This document shows, one piece after another, positions 17,301-54,134 of a DNA stretch of 64,000 nt. The translations under genes were made by a program, and so were the position numbers. The stretch covers positions 1-64,000 of the forward strand of contig JACEVL010000979.1 of NCBI GenBank assembly GCA_020284085.1, given 5' to 3'. The first letter of the stretch is position 1; each line of letters begins with the position of its first letter. The notes below the pieces were generated by a model that was given only the letters and a program-made list of their open reading frames with translations, searched no databases and had not been told where the DNA came from. The stretch is from Aporrectodea caliginosa. Lineage: Eukaryota; Annelida; Clitellata; Crassiclitellata; Lumbricidae.

Positions 17301-19713
17301 CTCTTTCTAAGAAGTCAGCAAGCCTATCTGCTAATATTGTTACAGGCTATTTTCAGCATTTAACCATACACACCCAAGCAACATGTTAAATAAAATCTCA
17401 CCTTGAAGCTTTATGATGACGAATCTTCCATCTAACACATTCCTATCAGCTGTCGAATTTAGGATTAAGTCGGCTACATTTCCTGCTGTCAAATAAAGGC
17501 TCTTTTCTCGTTGAATATCAGTGGCGCAAATGGTAACATTTCTCTTCCCTGTCTTATCCACGACCAAACCATAGCTACGGCATGACTGCTGGGCTCGTAC
17601 ACTTGCAGCGTGGTCCGAATCAGAGGCAGAAAATGCGATGAGGCTGACTCTTATTTTCTGCCCTACTGGTGCCTCTATAATCCATGGCTGTGATTTTGTT
17701 CCACATGTTCTTGAGCCAACGATGTGAATTGGAGTCGTCGAAACATCCACAGCACATGAACGCCTTTCATCAGCAACTGTTCAACAGTACAGATTTTTAT
17801 AGAACAATTACAAATATTCCACATTTTAACAACAAGAGTCAATGCCAGTAATGTAGTTTTAAATCAGGTCAGCCTACAATTTAAACTTTGGTGTTGTTTC
17901 GAATTTTTCGCCGTTAATTTTTGGTTTTCAACTGATCTGTTGTACTAGTATCTGCAGTTTATATACCACAATTGCTGTGTGAATCGCAAATTGATGGCAT
18001 ACTTGGTGTTCGATTTATACTGAGAGTTGTGTCGGAGGAAAGCTATAATGGAAGTGGAGCTTTAACCTAGCGGTCTAAAATGTTGCTAATCACAAGCTGT
18101 GCGGTAGTGCAGCCAGTGTTAGCGGTCATTTGCTTCAGTAGGCCTACAGAAGCGGCGTATTTCGTTCTCGATCGGCTTAAGGCTTACCTTTTCTAAATTT
18201 AGTATCCACCCTGATTTATTAGAGCTTAGCTTTGGTGCGCCAACTGCGCCATCCTTACCCAATTACCCACCGTACTTCGTCTTCAATCTGGGTTTCCTGA
18301 CTTTAACCGATTTCAACGGGTCCTCTTCAGTGGATCACTATTGTTAACGTTTGTGGTTGCACTGGTTTAAGTGACTATCGCCGGCCTATGCAAAGGACTG
18401 TGAGCGGCATAGACGTAATTAAGCCTTACTTTTATGCAGGCCTTACTTTGATGTAGATCTTACTTGATGTAGGCCTTACTTTGATGTAGGGACTTACTGT
18501 TGATGCAGACGTAGCTGGCTTCGAGATGAAAGCGGAGTCCTGAAGTACATGGCTCGATGTTGTCCACTGAAATCTCAGCCACACGTACATCGCATTCACT
18601 CTTTCCCGAACATCTCGGATCCAGCTGAGCCAATACATCGGCTGAACAGCCGAGGTAATGAGATCCAAGTTTCTCAACTTCTTTGGCAGTGATGCATCGA
18701 CCTATGCGCATCCGTCCGTAGGTGGAGCTTTTCATCAGGATGACTTCGTTTTTCAGACAACGAGGCTGGAAAGCCTCTGAATAACAGTACTCTGCAGATG
18801 ATTCTAAAACGTGAGGTCAGAAGCAAACTGTTACATTGTTTCTGTGGGTTTTGCGGTCTTTTCTACTTTTTATATAAATGTATAACGTAGAAGTGAATGA
18901 CGAAGTAGTCGTGCTTTAGCTTTTAGTTTCACAAAACTTGTTCAAATGAGCCTTTAAACTGATCAAGTAGGCCTTTATGTAGGCCCACGCTAAGTACGTC
19001 AAAACACGCACAGCTATGCTATATTCTATTTGAAATGAAACCTGAGACATATTTTAAATGCGTGGTGAAATTGAACCACGTGAAAAGTCGCGGTGCCCAC
19101 GAAGCGGACAACCTTGCAATTTGCCATGCAAGGTTTACGGAGCTAAGGTATCGCGGCCACCAGTTGATCCTTTGCCTGACGACAGAGGTCCTGGAAGAAC
19201 GGTCAATATTTAAGTCACATATCCAGGCGCAGACAGAACTCTTAAGTTATATGCTGCATTCCACATTCATGGAATGACATCACACATGTATTCTGAAACT
19301 TGGAAATCCGCCAGCAAACGCAGCAGCTTCCAAAATGTGCAAGTATCCCGGCCTCCCAAAGGAAGACATTCGTATAGCTATAGTAGCCTACAAGCAATGT
19401 CTCAATGTAGTCCTATGGATGCTTCTGTGATAGCACTGCAAAAGTAGACCTATAACAAAACCATTCAGAGAAAGAGAGCAGCGCTAAATGTTAGCCTATA
19501 CATTGTAACTACATTTAGGTCTACTGAACTTAGGGCCTACATCCCTGAGATCACAGTATATAAATATATATATATATATATAAAATTATTATTTATATAC
19601 ACACACGTCATAGTCCTACCTTCAAAGTCGTGTATTATCTCGTCCGCAGTCGATATCGCCATGATCAGTTTTGACATCAAAACTAAACCAATCACTAGCA
19701 ACTCCATTTGCAT
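14351..19713 (-). CDS. SUEL lectin-CUB-Sushi single-pass receptor-like protein with ITIM-like tail
   Basis: Complete in seven exons: 19620-19713, 18498-18803, 17402-17776, 16394-16546, 15564-15629, 15074-15155 and 14351-14594 (stop 14351-14353), 1320 nt, 439 aa. All introns have GT-AG and phases agree throughout. Domains: signal peptide (1-~22, MQMELLVIGLVLMSKLIMA); SUEL/rhamnose-binding lectin (32-133, with YGRMRIGRC, LGCSADVL, LDPRCSGKSEC and LEASYVC); CUB-like domain (134-258); one four-Cys Sushi/CCP module (259-309); Ser/Thr-rich stalk (310-331); transmembrane helix (~332-356, ILIVMALGGITLTVCVAIIC); tail of about 80 residues with L-E-Y-K-T-L at 368-373, an ITIM-like motif. The first five introns are phase 1, so the ectodomain exons are symmetric modules. 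SUEL domains bind rhamnose/galactose and CUB/Sushi are common in complement-like and adhesion proteins, so a cell-surface recognition or adhesion role is inferred. The CUB assignment is the least certain. Confidence 0.88.
15734..16192. mobile_element. TA-flanked MITE, GTCCATAAAGTACGTCACGC termini
   Basis: Terminal inverted repeats of about 28 bp: GGGGCCGTCCATAAAGTACG on the left and its complement on the right, flanked by TA. Inside each end is a C-rich run with GTCACAAACTGTCACA. It lies in the lectin-receptor intron between the stalk and Sushi exons. Related copies: 27734-28181 and single ends at about 23926 and 30026. Confidence 0.9.
16675..16815. repeat. (CTCTGT)n pyrimidine microsatellite
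   Basis: Low-complexity TCTGTCTC/TTTCTG tract in the intron between the CUB and Sushi exons. Confidence 0.85.
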
Positions 19714-32957: not shown

Positions 32958-33190
32958 AGCCATTAAACGGGGTAGGTTCGACTTAAGAAAATCTAATTTG
33001 CATAAATATCATATTTAGTTTGAAATTTATAAGTAAGTGAGTATTGTTAAGTATGACACAAATCTCGTACTTTCCGCCGTGTATGATACTTATATTAGAA
33101 AATAACGTCAAGACTGTGAAAATGTGCCAAAAAGTGATTTTGAAACTACGTCCCTACCTCCTTAACATTTCGCCTATATATTCCTAAAAA
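32408..33190. other. left flank of the Ty3/Gypsy element; (CT)n at 32907-32957
   Basis: No gag-like frame and no LTR are visible here, although the pol ORF starts at 33191. A CT dinucleotide run at 32907-32957 is low complexity. Confidence 0.6.
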
Positions 33191-36100
33191 ATGTGTGGCA
33201 ACTCTGAATTTTTTTACCAGTCGAGGCATCCTAATGGAAGAAATGTATGGGGTCTCGTGGACACAGGCTGTGAACTTTCATTAGCACCGGCTTCGCTTGT
33301 GAAAAAGGGAGACTTGGTGAAAACCAGACAGCTTTTACGCGCGGCGAATGGCACAGAAATCCGTGTCGTCGGGGAGACTCTGTTGTCCTGCGAGACAGAA
33401 GGATACACTTTTGAGGCGCGCTGCTTGGTGTCGGAACAGATTTCAGAACTTATTCTCGGATTGGCGTGGCTTGAAGAACAAAAAGCTCAATGGCATTTTG
33501 GGGAGCCTTGGATCACCATCAATGGTCATGTTCTACCAATCCATAATAGGCCAGAACCTGTGAAATGCCGAAGAATTGCCATTGCTCGAGACGTGAAAGT
33601 GCCTCCGATGAGTGAGATGGATATTGAAGTATTCGCCGTTCTACCAAGCCTGTCTATAGAATGTGGAACCTGGGCTACACAACCACAGCAACTGGACTCC
33701 GGACTATGGGTTGCTGGAACGCTGCTGCCCGACCGACTCAATGACTTAGTGGTACGCATAATGAATCCCACTGGTCAAACCGTGAAATTACGCCGAGGTC
33801 TACAATGGTCGACTGAAGATGTTGAGATCATGGAAGAAAAACATATGAAATCAAATCCTGGAGAATGCAACGCTGTGTGTGAGACGAATAAACCGCTAGA
33901 CGAGAAAACGATGGAACAGACCTTAGCGCCGCTCTGGAATGAAGTCGCCGAAGATGTGCCTGAATCCATAAAAGAAGATCTTCGCCGTCTTATTCTGCAA
34001 AACCACAGTGCCTTCTCGCTACATGAATTCGACTTAGGATACACGGAGATCCTACAGCATGAGATCGATACCGGAGACGAAAGACCCGTGAGGCAATCGC
34101 TTCGTCGACAGCCGATGACGTTGCTTCCTCTTATCGATGAACAGATTGACAACATGCTGCGGTTGAAGATTATCGAACCTTCGATGTCCCCCTGGGCAAG
34201 TAACGTTGTCATCGTGAAAAAGAAAGACGGTACGCCACGCTTCTGCGTAGATTACCGGGCTGTCAACGCAAAAACACGTCCAGACGCGTTTCCGCTTCCG
34301 TTGATCGCTGAATGCCTTGATAGTCTATCTGGTTCTCGATGGTTCAGTACATTTGACCTGAAGGCTGGGTATCATCAATTGGCCGTGCACACGAAAGATC
34401 GACACAAGACAGCTTTTATTACTCGGAAGGGTAGCTATCAATTCAGAGTCTTACCCTTTGGGTTAAGCAATTCACCTGCGTCTTTTTCCCGCATGATGAA
34501 TTTAGTCATGGCTGGCCTGAATTTTGAAATTTGTTTAATATACCTTGATGACATTATCATCTTCGCAGCTGATTTGAATACCCATCTAACCAGAATTGCT
34601 CGGGTGTTAGAACGACTGAAGACCGTGGGACTTAAATTGAAACCAAACAAATGCCACCTCCTTCAGCAACAAGTAACTTTCCTGGGACATGTCGTTAGTA
34701 AAGAAGGAATCCAAACTGATCCTGAAAAAATACGAATGGTATCTGAATGGCCAACACCGTCATCGCTACGAGATGCTCGGTCCTTTGTAGGTCTCTGTGC
34801 CTATTACCGCCGCTTCGTGCCTGACTTTGCACATGTGGCAAGACCTTTACACGCGCTTACTAAGAAGGGCATGCGGTTTCACTGGTCGATCGAATGTGAC
34901 AATGCATTTTGTGAATTGAAGAGATGCTTGACTGAAGCCCCTGTTTTAGCGTTGCCGAATGATCGAGACTTGTACATCTTAGATACCGATGCCTCTTACG
35001 AAGCTATCGGGGCCGTCCTTTCTCAAGTCCAAGAAGGACAGGAGAAAGTCATTTGTTTCGGAAGTCGTGTCTGCTCAGATGCTGAGAAGAATTACGATGT
35101 GACTAGGAAAGAACTGCTGGCTATGGTTCATTTTCTTAAAATGTACCGCCAATACCTTTTGGGGCGCAGGTTTGTCCTCAGAACAGACCATTCTGCACTC
35201 CAGTGGTTGAGGAAAACGCCTCAACCTATTGGTCAAAGCGCAAGATGGCTCACGATCATAGAGGAATTCAGTTTTGATATTCAACACCGCGCCGGCAGTG
35301 CACATCGCAATGCTGATGCCCTTTCCCGTCGTCCGATGGTGGTAGATGTCATTCAGAATGCACCAGCAACTGACTCGACATCACCGAATGTTTGTCACGA
35401 ATGGAACGCAAAGAAACTGATCGAGGAACAACGGGCAGATAAGAATCTTAGCTGGATCCTGGAACGACTGGCCGAGTCTGACGAAAAACCGTCCTTGGAA
35501 TCGACACGTGGCCATAGTCCTGAACTGAAGACACTCTTGGCGCAGTGGCCACAATTGATCAATAAAGACGGTTTGCTGATGCGCCGCTGGTTACATCCTG
35601 TCACGAATTCAATCATGTGGTATCAATTGATTCCTCCTCCGAGCCGGCGACAAATGCTGATTCAACAGACACACGACGGTATGTCTGGCGGACACTTGGG
35701 TATCCGTAAAACTACAGCGCAAGTCCGGAAAAGAGCTTATTGGCCGGGTTGGCGAGATGACGTTCGCCAATGCCTCCGTCGATGTCAAGTATGCGCCAAG
35801 TACTGGAGAGGACATCCTCCACGGCAAGGGAAATTGCAGAACATGAATGTCGGGGCTCCACTTGAATGTATCGGGATCGATATCACGGGTCCCCATCCCG
35901 TATCCACAACTGGTTATCGATACATACTTACCATTGTCGATCATTTCACCAGATGGGCTGAGGCGTATCCCATACGCAATCAAGAGGCAACCACAGTGGC
36001 TAGAGTCTTGGTGAAGGAATTCATTTCAAGGTTCGGTTGTCCGAGACAAATCATTTCGGACCAAGGCCCTTGTTTTGAGGCGATACTCTTCAAGGACCTC

Positions 36101-36850
36101 TGCCGACTGTTGCGCATAGATAAAGTACGCACGTCGCCTTACAAGCCTAGCTCGAACGGCGCCGTGGAACGTTTTCATAAAACGCTGAATTCCATGCTCG
36201 GTAAAATTGTCAGCCAGAACCAACGAGATTGGGACCTACATCTTCCGTACGTCCTGGCTGCGTATCGAGCAAGTGAGAATGAAAGTACTGGCTACACACC
36301 GAACCGGCTCTTCCTTTCCCGAGAGTTGTGTCTGCCAATTGATTTGATTTTAGGAGACTGCCGAGTTTTGCCAGACCGTCTTTCAACTGATGCTTTTGTT
36401 GTAGATCAACTAGAACGCATGCAAATTGATTTTCAATGTGTTAGAGAATTTATGCAGCGTCAAGCTAGTACTCGTGCCTTTAGATATGATTTGCGTGTCA
36501 AGGAAACTAGTTTCCAACCTGGAGACTTAGTGTGGTACTTCTATCCGAGGAGAAGAACGGGTCTGAAAGACAAATGGAATAAAAACTATACTGGTCCTTA
36601 CCAAGTGCTTGATAAATTAAGTCCTGTTCTTTATAGGATCCGGAAGAGTTCGAAATCCCCGCCTTTGATTGTCTATGTTGATAAATTAAAGTTGGTGGAA
36701 GGTGATTTTTCCCCCATCGAGGACGATGTCCGCACGTCCGTAGGATTTGAACCCGAAGAAGTTCTGGATGACACTTCGTTGTTAGGACAGGAAATCGTTC
36801 GTCCTAAGCGTTTGACTCAAAAACCTGTTAGGTTTCGTTGTGATGTTTAA
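33191..36850 (+). CDS. pol: Ty3/Gypsy retrotransposon pol polyprotein (1219 aa, uninterrupted)
   Basis: Encodes protease, reverse transcriptase, RNase H and integrase in Ty3/Gypsy order. Protease: LVDTGCELSLAP with D-T-G at 24-26. RT: FPLPLIAECLDSLSGSRWFS, FDLKAGYHQ, then the catalytic YLDD at 451-454. RNase H: DTDASYEAIGAVLSQ near 597, ELLAMVHFLK, then RTDHSALQWL. Integrase: zinc-binding H-x-H-...-C-x-x-C (about 825-865), GIDITGPHP (first D, about 895), ISDQGP (second D, about 955), NGAVERFHK (E, about 990), and a GPY/F module (NYTGPYQVL, about 1134). No chromodomain seen. The frame starts almost at the protease, so gag is missing upstream. Initiation at 33191 is nominal; normally pol is made by frameshift or fusion with gag. 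All catalytic residues checked are present, so the copy is recent. Confidence 0.95.
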   Translation: MCGNSEFFYQSRHPNGRNVWGLVDTGCELSLAPASLVKKGDLVKTRQLLRAANGTEIRVVGETLLSCETEGYTFEARCLVSEQISELILGLAWLEEQKAQWHFGEPWITINGHVLPIHNRPEPVKCRRIAIARDVKVPPMSEMDIEVFAVLPSLSIECGTWATQPQQLDSGLWVAGTLLPDRLNDLVVRIMNPTGQTVKLRRGLQWSTEDVEIMEEKHMKSNPGECNAVCETNKPLDEKTMEQTLAPLWNEVAEDVPESIKEDLRRLILQNHSAFSLHEFDLGYTEILQHEIDTGDERPVRQSLRRQPMTLLPLIDEQIDNMLRLKIIEPSMSPWASNVVIVKKKDGTPRFCVDYRAVNAKTRPDAFPLPLIAECLDSLSGSRWFSTFDLKAGYHQLAVHTKDRHKTAFITRKGSYQFRVLPFGLSNSPASFSRMMNLVMAGLNFEICLIYLDDIIIFAADLNTHLTRIARVLERLKTVGLKLKPNKCHLLQQQVTFLGHVVSKEGIQTDPEKIRMVSEWPTPSSLRDARSFVGLCAYYRRFVPDFAHVARPLHALTKKGMRFHWSIECDNAFCELKRCLTEAPVLALPNDRDLYILDTDASYEAIGAVLSQVQEGQEKVICFGSRVCSDAEKNYDVTRKELLAMVHFLKMYRQYLLGRRFVLRTDHSALQWLRKTPQPIGQSARWLTIIEEFSFDIQHRAGSAHRNADALSRRPMVVDVIQNAPATDSTSPNVCHEWNAKKLIEEQRADKNLSWILERLAESDEKPSLESTRGHSPELKTLLAQWPQLINKDGLLMRRWLHPVTNSIMWYQLIPPPSRRQMLIQQTHDGMSGGHLGIRKTTAQVRKRAYWPGWRDDVRQCLRRCQVCAKYWRGHPPRQGKLQNMNVGAPLECIGIDITGPHPVSTTGYRYILTIVDHFTRWAEAYPIRNQEATTVARVLVKEFISRFGCPRQIISDQGPCFEAILFKDLCRLLRIDKVRTSPYKPSSNGAVERFHKTLNSMLGKIVSQNQRDWDLHLPYVLAAYRASENESTGYTPNRLFLSRELCLPIDLILGDCRVLPDRLSTDAFVVDQLERMQIDFQCVREFMQRQASTRAFRYDLRVKETSFQPGDLVWYFYPRRRTGLKDKWNKNYTGPYQVLDKLSPVLYRIRKSSKSPPLIVYVDKLKLVEGDFSPIEDDVRTSVGFEPEEVLDDTSLLGQEIVRPKRLTQKPVRFRCDV

Positions 36851-40734: not shown

Positions 40735-42748
40735 TCATGGAATGTAATCGAACAGTAATCTTGCAAAATCCAAAGTCTTTGAAAGAACAGTTTGTTTTTC
40801 TTTGAACATTTCGACGAAAGCTTGCTGCAACAAATATATGTAAATTTATACATGAACATTACTTAATTTAAAAATGCTGCCCTAAACCTGAGTCAGTTAA
40901 TTAGATCCTATTTTCATAGCCAGGATCCAAACACCTTTACTGGGAAAAGGTTTCAAATCATGAAATGCAACACAGTTCACACATGACTTATCTAAAGGCA
41001 AAGCCTTGCAATTTTTTCATTAGCTTAAAAATGTATAGGGGACCTACAGGACTGAACTATTTAAAAAAGAATTTAAATTTGGAAATTGGAAAGTCTAAAC
41101 AGACCTATAGTTTTGTAGTGAATGTCGTTGCTAATTTTGAACAGGCTAAATATTTGTGTGAAACATAATAAAAAATTTGCTCACACTGAAAGGTACACTG
41201 CCCTGATAAATGATGCAGCTGCTTCACCCTATTGTGAAAGGATCTATTGAAATGAACAATACCTACATACATTCATGCATATGTATTTTATAAACATATG
41301 CACTGTATACCTATACGGCAAAAAAGAGCGATCGCTTGTAGAATGCATCTTCAGAAGGCAGAACCAGTGACCACGTACACCAAGCTAGGGACTTTACTGC
41401 TCTGCCAGATGTCATAACCTATTGCTTTTCACTTTACTTCAACAACAGTCCAAAACTGTATATATAATTTCGTTTATTGAAAATAGAAAGTTGACAGACC
41501 GCAACTTTTCACATAGAAGAAAAACAGAGAGAAAATAGCTATAATTATTAGTGTAATGTCAGTACGACAATGAACCGATGGATTGGATTGGGTTATCTCT
41601 TTGATATTGACTTAAAGAGCACACGGGGGAATGAAGCTATGATCATGCAGTTTATCAGCCCAACCAACCGTTGCCACTACTACAATAACAGTGAATTAAA
41701 AGCAACTGTATGGACAGTGACTTTGCCTTGAACTTACCCATCCTCCAGCCCCTGCAATCCAGAGATGCAGTCTCTTTGCCAAGTAGAATCCAATAAACTC
41801 TCCATAAAATTTCACAAACTCTTCAGGTTTCTCAACCTCAGAAACATGAAGATATTTGACAAACTGACCCCAAAAGGCAAACCAACAGATGATTCTACCC
41901 CAGTTGACATTCATATCATCCTGAAACAGCACATCAGCGATTAAGTCAACCGTGCGATATCCGTTCATCTCCAGCACATCCAAGTCGTCTAAACATTCTT
42001 TGAGGATATCTGCGTGTTCGGCTGTCGTGTGTTTTACCACTTGTCTCATTGTCGTAACATATTCAACCATTGCATCATCACATTTGCTGATGTCTTCCTT
42101 TAAGGGCACTTCGGAAAAGAGCAGTGTGACTTCAAGGCCAAGACGACACGCCACTTTCTCGATTATGCTGAAACTCTTACGTGGTTTTCTAATGAACTCC
42201 TCTATGCACTTGTTGACGAATCGCTTTGATGTGGAGGCATCAACCATATCCCAACCTTCAACAGCACGGGGTAACATCAAAGACTCCTCGGATGTGTGAT
42301 TCTTTGGATACAGAGAATGCTCAAGTTTCAACTCCACTTTCGACACTCGACTGCTAATCTTCTGCGTTTCAGCCAAAATCTGTTGCACCAACATCATCAA
42401 TTTTTCATCTTCGTGCGATTCAGCAGAGTCCACTAAGTCCTCATCAGGTACTTCGGAGGTATTTGTATTCTCGATGGCACTTGCAATCCACAAGTATCCT
42501 CTACCCTTAAGTACCTCACAGAAGGAACAAAGTAAGCCCGGCTTCGATTTCTTTTCTAGAATCGTAATCAACCTTCTGATCTGAGCGCTACAACCTTTTG
42601 ACTGCACATTTTCAATTTCCTTAACCTCATCTATTTCAAGGATTTTCCTTTCATACAGGAGGTCCTGTATTACATAGAAGATCACATTATCAACCAAGTC
42701 ACAATAATTTTCCCTTTTCTTCAGCCGTTTTCGATCGTCTAATTCCAT
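40735..42748 (-). CDS. CARD-Bcl-2 fusion protein, paralogue 1 (366 aa)
   Basis: Two coding exons: 41738-42748 (337 aa, start codon 42748-42746) and 40735-40824 (29 aa plus stop). Donor TGG|GTAAGT, acceptor TTGCAG|CAA, phase 0. Start chosen by alignment with paralogue 2 (M-E-L-D-D-R-K-R-L-K against M-D-L-C-N-R-K-R-L-R). Residues ~5-93 form a CARD (CDLVDNVIFYVIQDLLYERK...IRRLITIL...FCEVLKGRGYLW). An acidic linker follows with D-E-D-L-V-D at 102-107, then a short coiled region (~113-143). Residues ~175-362 are Bcl-2-like: BH4-like helix, weak BH3-like VACRLGLEV (199-207), BH1 VNWGRIICWFAFWGQF (281-296), BH2 WIAGAGGW|QAFVEMF across the intron. The intron after the BH2 Trp is the position and phase I recall for vertebrate BCL2 genes. 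No hydrophobic C-terminal anchor. A role in mitochondrial apoptosis or apoptosome/caspase control is inferred from the domains. Confidence 0.9.
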
Positions 42749-42954
42749 GTAGTAGGATATATATAATGTACGTAGCACGCAGTAGCCTACAGACAGCAAA
42801 GGATAAAAGTTAATATGGATTATAAGTTATCCTTATTTCCCAAACAGCAAAGTCATACGTTGGAGATATATGATGCGGATAAGACCAGATCCTTATATGT
42901 AGGATTTATGAGAGTCATATTCTCAACAATCTCAACATAATATCTTCAACATAA

Positions 42955-42956
<2 letters not shown>

Positions 42957-43027
<71 letters not shown>

Positions 43028-43028
43028 C
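42957..43028. repeat. (TA)n microsatellite
   Basis: About 70 bp of alternating TA upstream of paralogue 1's start codon, possibly in its promoter or 5' UTR intron. Confidence 0.9.
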
Positions 43029-43054
43029 ACATTAATAACATAACATGTCCCTGC

Positions 43055-43215
43055 CTCCCTCCCTTCCTGCCATAGGCGAGCTCCAGGATGGACGGAGAGT
43101 TGTAGGGAGGAAGGGATGGTTGGAGGTAGGGCCGGAGGGAGGCAGGGATGGAGGGTGGGGAGGGATGGACGGACGGAGGAACAAAGGGACGGAGCGAGTG
43201 AGGGAGGGAGGGATG
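43055..43215. repeat. GGGA-rich low-complexity tract
   Basis: Degenerate GGAGGGA repeats; minus-strand frames give Pro/Ser-rich peptides that I take as artefacts. Confidence 0.75.
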
Positions 43216-43378
43216 GTAAAGTAAGGTAGATTATAGGCCAGAGATCCACACATGATTTGATCATATAATTTAGTTTAAGAGAAACTCTATGAGTTTCAGC
43301 AGCAGTTGGATCCACTGACCAAACACAGGGTGGCAAGATGAAACTAGGAGGAGATGCCCTAGCAGGGACTAGTTAAAC

Positions 43379-43525
43379 CATCGACGTTAATTGGGTGGAC
43401 ACAGCGTAGTACAGCTAAAGTTGTACTGCAAAGTGAAGCATGCGCCTACTGAACTTTCTGCCATGCGTGACGTCAAGCTTCACCTTGAATCTCTTATGCT
43501 GTGTCCACCTAATAATACGTCGATG
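43379..43525. mobile_element. 147-bp MITE, 8-bp TSD
   Basis: Inverted ends: CATCGACGTTAATTGGGTGG on the left, and on the right GCTGTGTCCACCTAATAATA then CGTCGATG. The target duplication AGTTAAAC is perfect (43371-43378 and 43526-43533). The arms are about 30 bp each. Confidence 0.9.
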
Positions 43526-43534
43526 AGTTAAACC

Positions 43535-45300
43535 AATACAGCAACCACATCGGGAAATGGACAGGGACCCATAAAGACACACTGACAAAGGACCATAGGA
43601 ACACTGCTAAACACTGAGTGAGCTGGGCTGCTCAGCAGCCAGTAATGGCAAATGGAAGCAGTGAGATCAAAGAGACAAAAACGCTTGAAATAATTTATTT
43701 GAAAAATAATGTGATTGTGCCAAGCAGACTGACAGAATGCAGGAGCACCAACAAGTAATCGAAGCACCATAGGTAGGCCTCTCATAGGTAAGGTAACATG
43801 ACTGTATTTGCATAGAGAACCAGATAGACAAACACAAATCGCGGTAGAATGTATCTAACTATAAAAGACTGATGTCGTACAGCATGAGAAGTTCTAGTGT
43901 GCTTCACACTCGCGAGAGGCATATGGAACTCCAGAGTGCAGAAGACTCGCACAGTTTTGAACATGGCTAGGCTGAGTAGACACAACAGTTGTTCATCTCA
44001 GGCAGATTAGATTATGGTTCGTCATTGCTACATTAATCATTTTGGTGTAGCTCGAACACTACAACTTCTGAAGCGTATATAATTATGTCAAAGAGGCAGT
44101 AAAAAGACAATGACAATAAATGTGAAAACGCAACGTTCGTGTCCAGCTGTGGTCTGGTATTAAGTCCTCTACAACCAGGTCACATAACTATCCAATATTT
44201 CTTTACTTCTATTCTGTAAGTGCTTGAAAATCATTTTCGTTAAATCGTGATTTTGTGTTGTCAAATCAAAGTCTCTCTTGAAGAGGCGCTAAATAAATCT
44301 GACTACACATACACTGTTTATTACTCACATGTAAATAATGACTAAGCCATAAGCTTATATAGTTATATTGCTTACATACATATACCTACTTATAATATAG
44401 TTACATTCTGGATTTAATAATTATGACTCTTGCATAGAGTATAACCTATAGTAGAACCCAAACGCGGGCTGAAAACATACATGTGTTTATAGCCACGAGT
44501 AGGCCTATAGGCCCAGGCCCGCGATTCAAGAAGAACGTCAACAGCTTATAACAAGGGCTAATCGATTGCGACCTACTGAATATCTAAACTGGCGAATATG
44601 ATAGGGTATACCTAGAAGGGTAGGTTTTATATTTCATAGACGTAAACTTACTTGTTGACTTCCGTTGCCAAAATAAAACTGAGTTTTATCTGAGACAGTA
44701 ATAATAGTCCGAGGTTTCATTGTCTCACGAGAACCAGTAAATATCGTTTCGATTAATCAGTTAAGATTAGTGATGGGTATAAGTCATTCGCAACTCATGA
44801 TTCACGCACTTATGACTACTTATCTTGGGTAAATAGAACCTAAACTCAAACTCAGTATGAAGTTCTTGACTAATAACGTAAGCGAAATTCCGACAACAGC
44901 CGGAAATGTCCCAAAACAACACTTGCTATTAATAACTGAACGTTGGAAAACCCAAAGATTTTAAAAACCACTTCTATTAATAGCTTGATGTCGCTGACAA
45001 CGCTAGCTAAGTCGCTAGCTAAGGACAGTCAAGACTCAAGAGCTGTCTAATGCCACACAAAAGGTGTTCAAAGAAGTTTTGCTAAAGATGTCAACCGCCT
45101 TTGGTGTAATAAAATCACGTGAAACTGTCAGAACGAGTGTCTGGCGAGTGAGCTGGGCAACTTTTCACTTAACAATTTAATCGTTCCAAAACTTGGGCTA
45201 TTGTTGCACCTTAGTAACATTGACTCCATTCATGATCCATACAAAGTCACAGCCCAAGCATTATTCTGGGTTCATATAGTTAACTAAAATTTATCGACAA
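43535..45300. other. no gene recognised; LINE 3' scrap at about 44270-44315
   Basis: Only CTTGAAGAGGCGCTAAATAA at about 44278, a version of the common LINE 3' end GGCGCTATATAAAT, was recognised. TAGTGATGGGTATAAG at about 44768 resembles a hAT end but has no partner. Confidence 0.5.
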
Positions 45301-45302
45301 AC

Positions 45303-45306
45303 TATA

Positions 45307-45350
<44 letters not shown>

Positions 45351-45410
45351 TATATATATAATTGTTCATTATGTATATATAATTTATATATACATAATGA
45401 ACAAAATTAG
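45303..45410. repeat. (TA)n with palindromic end
   Basis: A TA run is followed by a near-perfect palindrome at 45362-45405: TTGTTCATTATGTATATATA and its complement around a short AT centre. Confidence 0.9.
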
Positions 45411-45668
45411 TAGGCACAACAAAGAGTATGACTCATACATGACAAAGAGTATGACATCAGTTATGGCTAACTGAATCCAAGCATACAAAGACTTTAAAGG
45501 CAATTGCTAAACCATAACATCCCAATGAACTCTGACTAAATTGTGTTGCATGCATGTGGTATAAATAATTTAAAAAGCAGAGCTTTGGTAAAAGTATAAC
45601 AAAGTATGCCACATTCAACTGAAGGGTAAGAAACGAAACTAAGATAACCAACTATTACAAAGTATTAA

Positions 45669-46576
45669 CCCTAGGGCTACCACGCTTTTTTTGTAACACT
45701 GGCTACCAAGAGGGGGGGGGGTTACCACCCCTCCTGGATTTCGTGTTTGGTTTTACATATCATAACTTGTAATATAGCAATGGATTCAGCATTCATTTCT
45801 GCACAGAATGGTATATTTAGTTGTACATTATGTGAATGCACCTCGAAATTACATCACTTTTAACAACGGAACCCATTAATTAGCAATATTGTATATTATT
45901 GCGTACATTTTGTACTTTTTGGATAAACAAATATAAGATTATGTGTGTTTTGAAACTAATCTATGTATAAAAGATACACACAATCATCCCTAAACATGTT
46001 TATATAGTATAAATGTACATCCATACATATATATCCATACATATATATCGGTTTACGTTGTAATGCTGTATTCAGCCATTTTCACACAGATTACACGTAT
46101 TATTATTTATTTTGATCACTTCCGGTATTCAAAAGACAAAGATGTAGGTATGCAAATGATGCCCTGCATTCCCTCTAAAGAATGGTATCTTTGTTTCTCT
46201 TCCAGGAAGACAAATGAATACGCTACAGACAAAAACTAAGGGGGAGTTCTTCCATTCAGCCATTTTTCACGCAAATGAAGCCCTGCATTCCCTCTAAAGA
46301 ATGGTATAATTGTTTATCTTCTAGGAAGAATAGTCAATAAGCTATAGTCGAAAAACTAAGGGGGGTGGTATCCACCCCCTGGTGCCTCGGGTATATCAGG
46401 TATAACTTTTGAATGGCGTGGGCTACCACCATGATGTTTACCTCAAAATGTGCGCCAATGAATCTGCTACAGCTACCTAAAATGCAAAAATTATATTCCA
46501 TATGGGAAAAAAAATTATGCATAAAACGTGGGGGGGGGGGTGGTAACCACCCCCCCCCCCCTTGGTAGCCCGAGGG
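45669..46576. mobile_element. piggyBac-like nonautonomous element with TTAA target sites
   Basis: Flanked by TTAA (45665-45668 and 46577-46580). Termini are CCCTAGGGCTACCA and TGGTAGCCCGAGGG. CCCT-type ends at a TTAA duplication are the piggyBac signature. Subterminal G/C runs flank GGTAACCACCCC motifs. An internal block with CCCTGCATTCCCTCTAAAGA occurs twice (about 46150-46250 and 46265-46365). No transposase. Confidence 0.85.
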
Positions 46577-46712
46577 TTAAGCCAAGCATTAAAATATGCT
46601 ACACAATATTTGTCAAGTTACTCAAGTAATCTAATTTTAGATTTTATCAAGGTCACATTTCACTATATATATTCCAGAATGAATCATTGCATATGAAATT
46701 AATCCATATCCA

Positions 46713-46893
46713 CAGTGGCGTAACTAGGACTTTTCTTTTGGGGGGGGCTTTAAGCCTAAAACATGGCGAATGCGGTAGCCCGAGCCTATAGTAAAGCCTG
46801 GCGGTTTGATTTATTTGGGGGCTTCAGCTTCGTTGGGGGGGCTTAAGTTGGGGGGGCTTAAGCCCCCCAAGCCCAATGCTAGTTACGTCCCTG
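46713..46893. mobile_element. 181-bp hAT-type MITE
   Basis: Termini are CAGTGGCGTAACTAG and CTAGTTACGTCCCTG. Flanks are CATATCCA and CATATCCC (7 of 8 match). GGGGGGCTTAAG motifs lie inside the right end. Confidence 0.8.
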
Positions 46894-46901
46894 CATATCC
46901 C

Positions 46902-48595
46902 ACTGTAAGAAAAGAACTTATGGAAAATTGATCTAAACGAACTAAAGATCTTGGGATCTGCTTTATGGTAGCTCTTGCACACACAATCTACATTTCTCAT
47001 AAAACTAGATCTGGGCTAGTCAGCTGATCTTCTTTCTGTTCCGCAAGAGCTTAAAGTCTATTCTGTTTGAACAAGGGGAATTCTCCTTGTTGGGTTGGGA
47101 ATGCTACCAATGAGTTTTTTCTTGAAGTTACACTTTACAAATTCTTATTTACTCTATGCTATGTTTAAGTGAGCTACCTGACAGGCAAATTCTTTTCACA
47201 ACTAAGAGAGTGGTGGAGTACACACAACAGCCTTCTCTCAACTCTGCCATTTCTGACACTAGGTGTCACAGAAGTCAGTTGGAGAGTGGTGGTGCCACTT
47301 TCACTTTCTCTGAGAAAATACATTAGGTTTAGGCAACATTGCAAACTTATGCAAAAACTTGTTTCATCTGCCAAAACTGCATATTTTGCAAGTTTAATCA
47401 CTGAAGGCTATCCATTGCAAAAGACCTCGTACCTAGCCTTGAATAAACGATTACATCAGTCTCATATGCTATACGCGAGCTTGCTGCAAGTAAATTCTTT
47501 GTCGTTTCTGTAGACAAAATTTCTTGTATAAGGGTGAAACTATCTGGTTGCTTTGGGTTGGACAAATTCCTTCATCCTAACTCTGCACCTAAGTACTGTC
47601 TTGGGACTACTTTCAGACCCATTGCAACTTTGGAATCCAGTTAATGGGATTGTGTGGCAGAGGCTATGGAAAAGTAAACAAGAAGTATTATAAAAGTCCA
47701 GGTAACAGAATGGCTTAAGTTTATTTAACTGGCCATTAACTTTGAAGATGGAGTTTCTTAATTTATCATAGCCTGCTCGACTCCTCTAAGGATTAAGTAA
47801 TATGCACTGCTACATGCTCAAAATCAATTCTATTGTCCACAACAGACTTGCACTTGGTATAGCTACCACACATATTACAGTTGGTACTAGTGACATAAAG
47901 GCTAGCAAATGATACTTCAAATAATCTACCCTAGCATTTGGTACTGCTGTCAATACAATCTTCCATCCTCATTCGTATAAATTCAACACTAAAACTTCAT
48001 CGTAATTTCATGTATTTTATTTAGAGCATTAAGCCATCAGGTTATTATCTTTAAAACTGCAATCAAAACTAACAACAGATAGAACTAGGCCCCTGTATGC
48101 AAAGAAATGACTTAACACAAACAATACCACACGAGACCAGGTAAAATAAAGTGTGCATCTTCAACCCGTTGCTGACTAGGTCATGTGTGGGTACGCTCTG
48201 CATGGACATAGCCATCTAATCCTGTTCAAACACAGTATGGATCTGGGCTTAAATTCCTTAAATATCTTTGGCCTTGCAACTGATCACAAATCTACGAACA
48301 TAATCTAAATTCCAAACTAAGGATAATCCTGCAAATTTAAAACACATCATTAAAAAAAGAATGCACTTCTCAAAGCAAGTCACAAAATACCTGAATCCAC
48401 TACAGTGTTATAATAAATTATTAGCAGGCTAACAAAACAGAGATTGGGTCTTTCCTATTTGCCTATTTTCCTGACAAAAAATTAAATAAACACTTCAAAT
48501 GTACAGCATCCCGACCAAGTTATAACGGTACAATTTAAACACTGGAAACAACTATTGCTCATCGCTCTACTTTGGCCTCCCATCTAGCCGCATAG
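46902..48595. other. no gene recognised; LINE 3' scrap at about 47080-47165
   Basis: CCTTGTTGGGTTGGGAATGC and the following lines match 52870-52960 and belong to a CR1/L2-like 3' UTR. A 114-codon plus frame at 47169-47513 has no recognisable motif, and I do not call it. Confidence 0.5.
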
Positions 48596-48599
48596 CATG

Positions 48600-49070
48600 C
48601 TTGGACCGAGTCTTGCGCTCTGCAGCGTGCCTCATTGGCAAATTCCAAAGTATGGTCACGTCTCCAGCTACATGCTGGAGGTCCTTCACTGGCTCCCTAT
48701 CTGCCAACACATCAAGTACAGGGTAGCTGCCCTGCAGTTTTGCGCTGTCTCCAGGGCCTCGTCCCAATTTACCTCTGCAAGCTCTGCTGTTTAATTTCGG
48801 TTGTCCCAGGGCGTCGCCTCCTACGCTCTGCAGAAAAAGGAGTTCTCCTGGTTCCGTTTGCTCGTACCGCAACTATGCAGAACTCAGCTTTTTCTGTTGT
48901 AGGCCCAATGATCTGGAATGGTCTTCCTCTAGAGCTGCATCTACACCCTGGGAGTCTGCATTTCCTCGCTAACTCAAAACTGTTCTTTTTGGGCGCGTTG
49001 GAGTTGGGACTGCCTCTGAGTAGTTTCCTTGAAGGGGCGCTATATAAATTCCCGAATGAATGAATTACAG
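48600..49070 (+). pseudogene. LINE RT C-terminal relic with 3' end
   Basis: Frames in succession give V-L-H-W-L-P-I-C-Q-H-I-K-Y, RTATMQNSAFSVVGPMIWNG and L-P-L-E-L. The end is GGGGCGCTATATAAATTCCC with an ATGAATGAATTA tail. At least one frameshift. Confidence 0.85.
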
Positions 49071-49071
49071 A

Positions 49072-50391
49072 TCAGTTGTTTAAATTGCATAACCAGTTTT
49101 AAATCAAACACAAAAATCTTGCCCTGGACACATACATGCCAAACAGTAGTAGATAGATATATATACAGGTATATAAATACATGTATATACATGTATATAT
49201 ATACCATATCAGTTATAACCAGTTACTCAGTACCTGAAATCCTCCAACACCATTTGGCAACTTTTCTGAATTAAAATACATCAGTGAACATAAATGGTTT
49301 TCACATCATGATGATGATGATAATTTCGTGATTGTGTGCAATATAGCTTCACACTTTTTAATGCCATATCCAGGTAATTGAAGACCTATGATGTGATGCA
49401 CTATCAATAAATTTTATGTTTTTATATTTGACTACAATGGTCTTCAAGTGTTGATAAGTTTCCCAGGCAATGAGACAATGCAAGTCTACAGGGTGCCCTT
49501 TCCATGTTGAAGCAAAGCATGAAGTTTCATTGTAAGAGTGCAAAAAAAGGGAACAGCCAGTTTGTCCCTTGTTGTAGACTAGAGGGAAATGCTGCCAGCC
49601 ACACAACAAAGCTCATGCACGAAGAGAGGTTGCAAAACTCAGCTGCACTGCCAAAATCATAACAAACTGAAATATTAACTTTAAATAGTAACATTAAGAA
49701 ACTGTATAAAGCATAACTATAAATACATGTATGCTCTTTTCTTTTTCAAATGCTGTTTCGGGTAAACCTGGGTCAATTGCTTACCAGTATATATATCTGA
49801 AAGTCAGTGAGACTTAACAACAAACTTGGCAAACACAAGTCCACTGCAAACCCATGAAGTTTCTAAATATTACTTCAAATATGAACGCCAGATAGCCACA
49901 ACATTATTCTGATAGGAATAACTCAAATTCTGTTATTAGAGTCTAGCTGAAGAATGTCATCTTAAAGTTTTGAATTCTGTCACTAGTCAAGGACTTTTCA
50001 AACCTGGTAAATATACATGATACTCCAACAAGTTACATGTGTCCATAAAACTTACGCAGAAGCAATGAATGTCAATTTAACAAACTACATAATCTGAGAA
50101 AAAGAATGCATTATTACAGAAGAAATTTCTGTCCATAATGCAGTACACTATATATGACATATGACATGCACATGTTAACCCTATAACAATGCGCTGCATA
50201 TATTTTATTTCCCATATATTTTTTTACACACTCGTAGTTGAGGAGTTAAAGGTACATTACACGTGCTTTGAGACAGTGACAATCAAATCAATTCACTTCA
50301 CATTATAGCAAAGTAGTAGTGTGAAATCCAGCCCGAACGTAACTTTATTCACTTTGGCGATCTGTCTTTGAGGTATACAAAACCTTTCTCA
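49072..50391. other. no gene recognised; 3' flank of paralogue 2
   Basis: A short TATACATGTATA tract lies at about 49155-49205. The 3' UTR of the minus-strand gene ending at 50392 should begin here. Confidence 0.5.
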
Positions 50392-53300
50392 TCAAGGTCT
50401 GCAAGGATACTGATAGAGTACTTCTCGGACAACGCAGTCAAACAACATAAGTAACGTAATCTGCCTTGCCTGAAGTGCGCCTCGTTGACGATAATATTCT
50501 ATAAAGGCAGACTGTAAAAGAAAGATATACAATGATAAGTTGTAATTACATAAACATATGTTTTTGAGTACAAATGATTTAATGTTTACAAATATTTCAG
50601 GCAGAATAACTACAGTAGAAGGAATGACTGAACTTAAAAATTCTATAAACAAACACACTAAATAATATGAATGCAAAGTTTCAGACCTTAATGCCTACTA
50701 CTTCTTGAGAGATGAGGCTTACAACAAACCTAGGGATGCCCAATTTTTAGTGTCATTGCTAATTCAGTAGATATATTATTTTAGTAATTTGCCCACAAGC
50801 CTAAGTTCCAGGTTATGGAAGAACAAGGAGAGCAGTCCCTTAAGCTAACCCTGAGGCATGAAATGTTAGCGACTTCCTTTTCTCATGTGCCTCGGCACAT
50901 GAGGGCGGGTGGCCAGTCCTCTCCCTCACTGTCTCATCTTCCCATCGACAGTGTACAGTCAGTGTACTCATTACAGCTGAGTTGGCTAGAAGGCAGTTGG
51001 GGCAGAAATCTCAAACCAAATGTTTATCCTGGCAGGGATTTGAACCTCTGACCACTCAATCGACAGTCCTGCGTGCTAACCACTATGAAGCACTCCCAGG
51101 TAATTGGAAACTCACCTAAAATTATGTCCCACATTACAGATTTATGACTTTGAACCCAGTTTGTGAAGCAATGAACTATTGTAGACAATGTACATAAATT
51201 CTATGTACACAACCTAATGTAATAATACAGAAGAACTGTCTTTGTTCTAAACATCAAACAAGTCTTTGTCTTCATTCTAACCATCTAACCATCAATCAAA
51301 CAAGAGTTTTATTGATGGTTAGAGATTCATACATCACTTGTACAGATCACATTTTGCTAAATATTTTTTTTAAGCAGCATATCTGATACACCATGTATGT
51401 AAAAATATGCTAGAAAGAGCTAAATACTTTTGTGGACCGTGGGAAAGTTAATAAATTGGACCACATGATTCAAATGACAAAAATGCTAGGAATTCTGAAG
51501 CAAATGTATCTTATGGATCATTGGTATCTGTCCTAGTTTTCTGTGCATTGTTTTAAGTGCTAATGGCGTTTTTCCTAAACCAGACAACAAACTGAAGCGT
51601 CACAAGACATGGTTTGTCTACAAATCGTCAAAATTATCACACTGAGATTATAAGTTGGAACTTTTCACAAAATGAGTTTAATTGACATAGAATAACCCAA
51701 TACTGCTTAATCCTTTAACGATGAGCATGTACTGAAATGTATGGGAAGTAGGGCTGTCAAAATATTAGAAAAACGCGGCCCGGGCCCCCAACCTCAGTTT
51801 CAGCGGGGGCCCGTCGGCCCGTCACTTAAAGAAAGCAAGAAATACTTGCGTTACCTTACAGTGTACACAGCACATAAAATGGCGGCTGATAGCTTGCTAG
51901 TCGCTAAAAGTTATAATTCGCTAAATTACATGTAACTGCTAGTCCGCTAGATAATTAATAACTGATGCCCACATTTTATTCCCAAAGTTTAAAAGTTACC
52001 TGCAGTCTGCACTGACGTGATTAGACAGTTAAATGCACAAAACAATGGAATGATTCTAATAAACTACTAAATCTTTATTTCAAACGAAAGCAACAGCAAT
52101 GGCGGTTTGGCGGTAAACAACGAGATCTCGCGTTAAGATCTAGACAGTCCAAGTAAGTCAGTACGTAACCAATCTTAATGGTAGTATTATTAACAAATTG
52201 CGCTAGGGCTTAAATTAAAAGTTAGTCACTCGTCGGCTTGCGGGTCAGCTACAGGCGGTAGGGCTGATGAGTGACGATAGGAAGCATGTTTCCCAATTTC
52301 TGTTCATAAGCCGAATGCAATAACAGCCAGTGTGTCACCAGACTCGCCACCAATTCCCGATATAGCGATCTTTCTTCTTTGATTGACAGGCCTAATAGTC
52401 GCCGGCGGTCTGTCGCCGATACAGGGTAGCCTATACTGCGAAGGCGGCAGATTTGAAGAGGGGCACAAGGCTCTAGCAGCACATCATCCACAGGTCTGGT
52501 AATAGCAGTAATACCTCAACGCGCTGCAACGCATGGCTGGTCTTAGTATAGCCAGCTGACAAGTAAACAGGTACGGGTGCCAAGTTGCCAACTACCCCCG
52601 CGCCGATGACTAATACACCACTGTAGCTGGCCAACACATCTTCAAATCCACAGCGTTTTAGGCGACAGAAAGTGTGTATTTAAGCTTTTAAAATTTACTT
52701 AAAATAATATGCTGATTCGGACGGGTTTTCGGGCCTTGATTTAAGGGCCCGGGCCGGGCCCTTCGAACGGGCCCCCGGGGGCCCGTTGACAGCCCTAATG
52801 GGAAGCCAATGCAGCTCATCGTTTAAGGGTTAATGCAGGTAAATAAATCATAGTCTTCCTTCTGCGTCAACGTGGTTCTCCTTGTTGGGTCGGGAGCACT
52901 ACAGAGTTTGTCTTGAAGTTGTGCTTCACAAGTTCTCATTTATGTTATGTTGTGTTATGATGTTGTCACTTCGACCAAATATAACCCAAAAGACTGAGGG
53001 CGTCTCTAGTCAATAAACAGTATGTATCATGATAAATAAAGAGAAAACGTTATTTAAAATAATTCATACCCATCCTCCTTCTCGTGAAATCCACACATGA
53101 AGTCTTCGTGCCACATAAAACCCAACAAACTTTCCATAGAACTCCACACATTCATCCAGTTTGTCAATCGGCAAAGGTAGGGAACTGACACACTGAGCCC
53201 AGAACGAATACCATGCTACAATTCGACCCCAATTGACGGTTTTGTTGTCTTCAAACAACTCATCGGCCAGTCGGTCAATTGACAGATAACCGTTCATTTC

Positions 53301-54134
53301 ATCCTTATCCATCTCTGCTACACACTGCTTCAGCTTATCACCATGTTCATCCAACACCAGTTTGGTCATTTGCCTCATTGCTTCTGTGTATTGATCAGTT
53401 GGCTGTAAAGTTAGGTTGTGGCCAGCAGCGTGAAGGAAGAACTGCATCACATCGATCCCAACACGACAAGCAATGTTCTCGATCTCTTCAAGCGATCGAG
53501 GACGAAATCGACCCATCACACGATTCCAACTGAATCCAGCATCATCGGACGGTCTCTTCATGAATTCTGCAACATATTTCTGCATAAATTGGCTTCCATC
53601 CACTGCATCTGGTTGACCTAGTCCAACTGACGACATTCTTTTGGGACCTCCCGCAACCCCAAAAGAACTTTGATTGATTGCATTAAATTTTGTGCCTAAT
53701 TGCTGTTTCAGTTCTTCCAATTCCACCCGGTGTTGCTGCTGCATGTCGACCATCGTCTGCGTTTGGGTCCAAAGCTGCTTCATCAGTTCTTCCACTTTGT
53801 CCTTGTACGACTGGTCGCCACCATCCACGAGGTCTTCGTCGCTGTCTTTGATCTCAGTATTTTCCAGGTCATCCGCGACGAAACTGTAATCGGCAGGGCA
53901 ATCTCGAAGCACCTGACAGAAATCTTTAAACACATTTTCTCCCTGTTTCCCTTTGAGAATCTTGATCAGCTCTCGTATCTGACCCTTTTTCGTCGGTTTT
54001 CCTTCTATCAGTTCTAACTCTTCATCATCGATAACCTCGCATTGGTACAAAAGATCCCCGAACTCCGGAAACAGAAGATTATCGACCATTAGACAGTAAT
54101 TTTTCCTCAAGCGTTTCCTATTGCACAGATCCAT
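50392..54134 (-). CDS. CARD-Bcl-2 fusion protein, paralogue 2 (394 aa)
   Basis: Two coding exons: 53070-54134 (355 aa, start codon 54134-54132) and 50392-50511 (39 aa plus stop). Donor GGATGG|GTATGA, acceptor TTTACAG|TCT, phase 0, the same site as paralogue 1. CARD at ~5-90 (YCLMVDNLLFPEFGDLLYQC, ELIEGKPTKKGQIRELIKIL, FKDFCQVLRDC). Linker with D-E-D-L-V-D at 99-104, then a coiled coil (~110-147, Gln-rich). Bcl-2 region from ~182: S-Q-F-M-Q-K-Y-V-A-E-F-M-K-R-P (BH4-like), IACRVGIDV (221-229, BH3-like), TVNWGRIVAWYSFWAQ (BH1, 299-314), then WISREGGW|SAFIEYYRQRG (BH2). The tail after BH2 is not a clear membrane anchor. The 2.56-kb intron holds a SINE and a hAT element. The pair with paralogue 1 is an 11-kb-apart same-strand duplication, old by sequence divergence. 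Confidence 0.92.
50815..51095 (-). mobile_element. tRNA-derived SINE, third family
   Basis: The minus-strand head has box A-like TAGTGGTTAGCAC and box B GGTTCAAATCC (plus strand GGATTTGAACC near 51034-51044). A body of about 220 bp runs to about 50815. Located in the intron of CARD-Bcl-2 paralogue 2. Confidence 0.75.
51749..52797. mobile_element. hAT-type element, perfect 8-bp TSD
   Basis: Termini are TAGGGCTGTCAA and TTGACAGCCCTA. The target duplication ATGGGAAG is perfect (51741-51748 and 52798-52805). Subterminal GGCCCGGGCCC motifs are at both ends. 1049 bp without transposase. Inside the paralogue 2 intron. Confidence 0.95.
52855..52965 (+). repeat. LINE 3' UTR scrap
   Basis: CTCCTTGTTGGGTCGGGAGC followed by a (TTATG)n-like tail, similar to 47080-47165 and to the GGTCGGGAGCGC end at about 56988. 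Confidence 0.55.

Follow-up and report, generated by a model that had tools for sequence, protein, structure and literature searches.

In animals with the best-studied cell death, CARD and Bcl-2 domains belong to separate proteins. The 64-kb stretch of DNA analysed here (the window) contains two minus-strand genes, arranged head to tail with gene 2 transcriptionally upstream, and in each of them an uninterrupted exon 1 encodes a CARD, a linker and a Bcl-2 core through the tryptophan of Bcl-2 homology motif 2 (BH2). The original prediction had proposed such a CARD-Bcl-2 fusion, and the fusion is genuine: both halves are matched by hidden Markov models (HMMs) and lie within one exon.

The two domains of the fusion

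Gene 2 runs from an ATG at 54134 to a donor site at 53070, continues in exon 2 (50511-50392) and specifies a product of 394 residues; gene 1 (exon 1, 42748-41738; exon 2, 40824-40735) specifies 366 residues. The Bcl-2 cores comprise residues 177-355 in gene 2 (53070-53606, minus strand, as for all features of both genes) and residues 170-337 in gene 1 (41738-42241). Pfam Bcl-2 scores for the two genes are 53.7 and 51.8 bits at a curated cut-off of 31.4 (PF00452, E 1.3e-13 for gene 2), the family is detected at E<=0.01 in all 12 members of the fusion family (the two genes and the homologues described below), and a phmmer search of the PDB with the gene 2 core returned Bcl-2/Bcl-xL chains with a best E of 1.3e-12. 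The BH1 sequence NWGR and the BH2 sequence GGW are present in every member; BH1 reads NWGRIICW from residue 282 in gene 1 and NWGRIVAW from residue 301 in gene 2, precisely where NWGRI had been placed before, and BH2 reads WIAGAGGW and WISREGGW, respectively. In both genes an intron follows directly after the BH2 tryptophan, which is a feature of the Bcl-2 family. It measures 2558 bp in gene 2 (50512-53069) and 913 bp in gene 1 (40825-41737), lies in phase 0 and has GT-AG ends. Other Bcl-2 loci of the genome have valine after this tryptophan in 22 of 24 open frames, as a GT donor would give, a count made on the open frames. Judged from its sequence by domain, signature and intron, the fusion is a Bcl-2 family member with an added CARD.

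The BH3 signature LxxxGD occurs in only three of the 12 members (gene 2 and the homologues P0001 and P0003), in which it stands 38 residues ahead of the BH1 arginine, a spacing shorter than in known Bcl-2 members. A hydrophobic C-terminal membrane anchor was not found in either gene, the best 19-residue hydropathy near the C terminus being 0.84 in gene 1 and 1.04 in gene 2. Such an anchor is common but not universal in the Bcl-2 family, and a BH3 signature is not required of every member. The combination of intact BH1 and BH2 in all members, rare LxxxGD and no anchor suggests a soluble receiver rather than a pore former. Neither a protease nor an NTPase domain is present among the Pfam matches of the two frames (peptidase C14 is absent at E<=1), and NCBIfam yielded a bcl-2 model matching both genes far below its cut-off and one weak sigma-factor match.

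The CARDs correspond to residues 1-97 of gene 2 (53844-54134) and 1-98 of gene 1 (42455-42748). When each half was tested with HMMs, the expectation of a match was borne out for Bcl-2 in both genes and for the CARD of gene 2 (37.8 bits, cut-off 23.9); the CARD of gene 1 taken alone scored 18.5 bits and fell below the Pfam cut-off. Pfam CARD is detected at E<=0.01 in 12 of 12 members, and the fusion CARD has the six helices of the CARD fold. A linker with a (D/E)ED(L/V)VD stretch across the 12 aligned sequences connects the two domains. In gene 2 (residues 98-176, 53607-53843) DSSP assigns a long helix to residues 107-150 of a predicted model in which pLDDT (predicted local distance difference test) is mostly below 50, and in gene 1 (residues 99-169, 42242-42454) the linker is partly helical in a low-confidence part of the model.

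Relatives, shared history and host

Two single-sequence searches returned five relatives each, all from other contigs, and a profile search built on all relatives recovered nine of these ten without adding any other sequence at E<=0.001; these searches cover proteins of 0.55-1.75 times the query length. P0001-P0005 are nearer to gene 2 (51-98% identity) and P0006-P0010 to gene 1 (75-88%). A tree of Bcl-2 cores, in which 16 further Bcl-2 exons from the genome and two human segments were included, places the fusions in a single clade (support 1.00) and divides them into a gene 1 and a gene 2 branch (0.90 each). On this topology, the simplest reading would be one fusion, then one duplication, then species divergence. 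The paralogues are 43% identical in the Bcl-2 part and 42% in the CARD, silent sites are saturated and the nonsynonymous divergence (dN) is about 0.5 in both domains; together with the open frames and the ten homologues, this upholds the earlier view of two retained, constrained copies. The gene 2 core is 13-26% identical to the 16 compared Bcl-2 exons, and among the genome's other Bcl-2 exons the highest-scoring one shares 26% identity with the gene 2 domain.

A distribution of CARD and Bcl-2 parts over separate mRNAs, which had been named as an argument against the fusion, was not seen: one exon holds both, and three of the ten homologue sequences also cross the last intron. In P0001, which is 98% identical to gene 2, the exon 2 tail (SAFIEYYRQ...YPCRP and stop, 50392-50511) is joined to GGW with one difference, and the longest P0001 contig (1661 bases) is shorter than the gene 2 intron. 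P0006 has the homologue of the gene 1 tail (QAFVEMFKE...FDYIP and stop, 40735-40824) at the same junction, a similar tail is found in P0004, and the remaining seven homologues run into intron-like sequence or stop there. We take P0001, P0004 and P0006 as probable transcript contigs; they may instead derive from a processed copy in the genome of another species, and genome searches with the CARD and the Bcl-2 part found no processed copy of the fusion in the host.

The host genome was searched exon by exon, so that a split fusion could be missed. The CARD found four places (two in the window, one RAIDD-like and one other) and the Bcl-2 part 11, two of them inside the window; neither extra CARD place coincides with any of the 26 Bcl-2 places of the genome. 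Of the other CARDs detected in the genome, the RAIDD-like exon (L072, G000:C381:1730221-1730472) comes closest, with 32% identity to the fusion CARD (E 2.0e-4) compared with E 4.7e-14 to a RAIDD chain. CARD exons are many (150 scored matches among 1083 candidates), and several contigs, for example C61, C167, C283, C439, C4 and C663, have multiple CARD places. Caspase exons are plentiful as well, with 73 matches and several per contig on C385, C860, C615 and C371. Two near-identical Bcl-2 exons on different contigs (L027 and L028, on C3934 and C476) possibly represent two haplotypes. A scan of viral contigs, bearing on a viral origin, gave no relative; the single match of a prokaryote scan (L075) is antisense to a 388-residue frame, by its look presumably an aminotransferase, and was taken as chance.

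The host, whose assembly measures 1.1 Gb, is very probably an annelid, and the echinoderm or hemichordate setting assumed originally therefore fails. Contig C4544 (15,120 bases) carries mitochondrial genes, and its COX1 has AAA at the lysine positions of TNHKDIGT and TGIKVFSW, which we take to be invariant. AAA thus fits lysine and not the asparagine of the echinoderm mitochondrial code, an argument against echinoderms but, on its own, not against hemichordates. All protein genes detected share one strand, and their order, COX1-COX2-COX3-ND6-COB-ATP6-ND5-ND4-(gap)-ND1-ND3-ND2, is the one that we take to be common in annelids; it covers COX1 and ten others, with ATP8, ND4L and rRNAs outside it, ND6 scoring below cut-off and ND2 matching only the family common to ND2, ND4 and ND5. 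A COX1 copy with a score equal to that of the mitochondrial one lies on a large contig (G000:C70:3435453-3436790) and is either a nuclear copy or a misjoin.

A candidate function at a caspase platform

The explanation that we favour, tentatively and at somewhat less than an even chance, is that each gene gives rise to a soluble CARD-Bcl-2 protein docked on a caspase-activating platform, with BH3 ligands switching inhibition there. From the N terminus, the protein would consist of a CARD that most resembles those of apoptosis (caspase-9, Apaf-1), a linker with helical structure and an anchorless Bcl-2 domain of pro-survival type. The CARD would dock the protein onto an Apaf-1/caspase-type CARD assembly, the Bcl-2 groove would bind BH3 ligands, and this binding would act on the caspase platform itself, relieving or imposing its inhibition with no mitochondrial step in between. 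Such an arrangement would repeat the principle by which nematode CED-9 acts on CED-4, with the association built permanently into one chain, and the two diverged paralogues may have different CARD partners. A more far-reaching version, which we consider doubtful, would make the fusion a single-chain BH3 sensor in an apoptosome-like CARD assembly, in which BH3 proteins switch caspase activation and bypass mitochondrial permeabilisation, and thus an independent, covalent coupling of the CED-9/CED-4 type in a CARD-rich annelid lineage.

Caspase-9 narrowly leads the CARDs in the profile search and in each of the two structural comparisons, and by structure it is tied with Apaf-1. It contacts Apaf-1 through Arg10, Arg13, Arg52 and Arg56, and the exchanges R13A or R56A prevent contact, as described in PMC11755718; a search of PMC5050015 did not yield these contact residues. 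In a register taken from the CARD alignments, the fusion family is basic at the equivalents of Arg10 (11 of 11), Arg52 (six of 12, all six of gene 2 type) and Arg56 (12 of 12) and never at Arg13 (0 of 11), so that three of the four basic positions are kept in gene 2 and two in gene 1, with Arg13 lost in both. Among nine control CARDs of the genome, four, six, one and three are basic at the Arg10, Arg13, Arg52 and Arg56 equivalents, respectively; the controls are a non-random sample of distinct CARDs, namely the eight best-scoring Pfam CARD hits and one near hit, from which a wrong-strand reading (L004) was left out and in which L072 was counted with L001. The fusion family thus appears to stand out at three of the four contact places and to go against the pattern at Arg13; docking on an Apaf-1-like CARD is plausible, more so for gene 2 than for gene 1.

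Several observations weigh against the favoured explanation. CARDs of MDA5 and RIG-I score nearly as high as that of caspase-9 in both sequence and structure. The Arg13 equivalent is tyrosine or phenylalanine in all 11 sequences and arginine in six of the nine controls, and none of the six gene 1-type sequences is basic at the Arg52 equivalent. The Bcl-2 part of the predicted models has low to moderate confidence (10-residue blocks of 33-75 in gene 2 and 53-85 in gene 1; predicted template modelling scores of 0.40 and 0.47, respectively), and a Foldseek search with the gene 2 model gave no match at E<=0.001 and had Bak chains among its Bcl-2 matches. An NB-ARC exon, as in Apaf-1, was not found among 12 candidates of the host genome, a weak test because of exon splitting. 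Furthermore, sequence is a poor predictor of the activity of Bcl-2 proteins, according to PMC7456325.

An unlikely but serious alternative is that the CARD by itself acts as a decoy that blocks the CARDs of caspases or adaptors, in the manner of CARD-only inhibitors and of ARC, a known CARD-containing inhibitor of apoptosis (PMC4453921), and that the Bcl-2 fold only tethers the protein near BH3 proteins or Bax/Bak at mitochondria. The lack of protease and NTPase domains among the Pfam matches agrees with this, and without a membrane anchor the Bcl-2 part could serve as a targeting module; however, BH1 and BH2 persist in all 12 members, and between the paralogues the Bcl-2 part has diverged no more than the CARD, both points in favour of a groove that is itself in use. 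About as probable is an innate-immune adaptor, whose CARD would join signalling of the RIG-I/MDA5/MAVS or NLR type and whose Bcl-2 domain would regulate that rather than the apoptosome: the high scores of the MDA5 and RIG-I CARDs are set against the first rank of caspase-9 in all three comparisons, narrow as it is, and against the RAIDD-like nature of the closest other CARD in the host genome. Some multi-motif Bcl-2 proteins form pores, and CARDs are able to seed oligomers. A pro-death effector, a Bax/Bak-like pore former oligomerised through its CARD, would suit these properties and the Bak chains matched by the gene 2 model, but is quite improbable given the missing anchor in both genes, the scarcity of LxxxGD and the gene 1 model, for which the Bcl-2 matches listed by structural alignment are Mcl-1 and NRZ. 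An assembly join, a pseudogene or a chance open frame, for which the sub-threshold gene 1 CARD is the only point, can scarcely account for a single exon in two paralogues, ten homologues from other contigs, three of them with a joined exon 2 tail, and saturated silent sites at a dN of about 0.5 in both domains.

Surroundings and comparison with known systems

Between the two genes lies a pair of 96-base repeats (46152-46247 and 46271-46366) that are 81% alike. Elsewhere in the window, an open frame of 1220 residues (33188-36850, plus strand) has reverse transcriptase, RNase H and integrase and is of Gypsy type by domain order, and 18460-18816 (minus strand) is a probable SUEL-type lectin exon (E 1.7e-6, 28.8 bits, cut-off 31.4). 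An Rfam scan of the window gave nothing at gathering scores.

In the literature searched, whose scope lay outside supplements, bioRxiv, InterPro and UniProt, a CARD-Bcl-2 fusion is undescribed: phrase searches gave zero papers, and the word CARD occurs zero times in the main text of the Bcl-2 evolution papers PMC8998228 and PMC7022251. Automatic annotations of this architecture may exist in databases. What is new is the architecture, and its parts belong to two known families. Two arms of the cell-death pathway can be fused and evolutionarily retained, and a conserved single chain in which a Bcl-2 groove is combined with a CARD resembling that of caspase-9 makes it testable how widely Bcl-2 proteins are coupled directly to the caspase activator in other animals.

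The fusion resembles Bcl-xL, Bcl-2, Mcl-1 and NRZ in its Pfam Bcl-2 domain, BH1 NWGR, BH2 W-I-x(3)-G-G-W, the intron after GGW and structural matches, and differs from pro-survival members in its N-terminal CARD, the absent transmembrane anchor and a BH3 signature that is mostly lost. With caspase-9 and Apaf-1 it shares a CARD closest to that of caspase-9 by profile and basic residues at R10 and R56, plus R52 in the gene 2 type; unlike them, it has no protease or NTPase domain, Tyr or Phe in place of R13, and a Bcl-2 domain attached. RAIDD (CRADD), represented in the genome by the CARD exon closest to that of the fusion, pairs a CARD with a death domain. In ARC (NOL3), a C-terminal P/E region takes the place of the Bcl-2 fold (PMC4453921). 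In starfish, Apaf-1 seems to activate its caspase independently of cytochrome c (PMC5785508), which suggests that non-vertebrate animals can have other ways of controlling the apoptosome; a Bcl-2 protein with a CARD could be one of them here. CED-9 of Caenorhabditis elegans holds the caspase activator directly, whereas mammalian Bcl-2 acts via mitochondria and without binding Apaf-1 (PMC7022251); CED-9 and CED-4 are separate chains, and in the fusion the Bcl-2 protein bears its own CARD.
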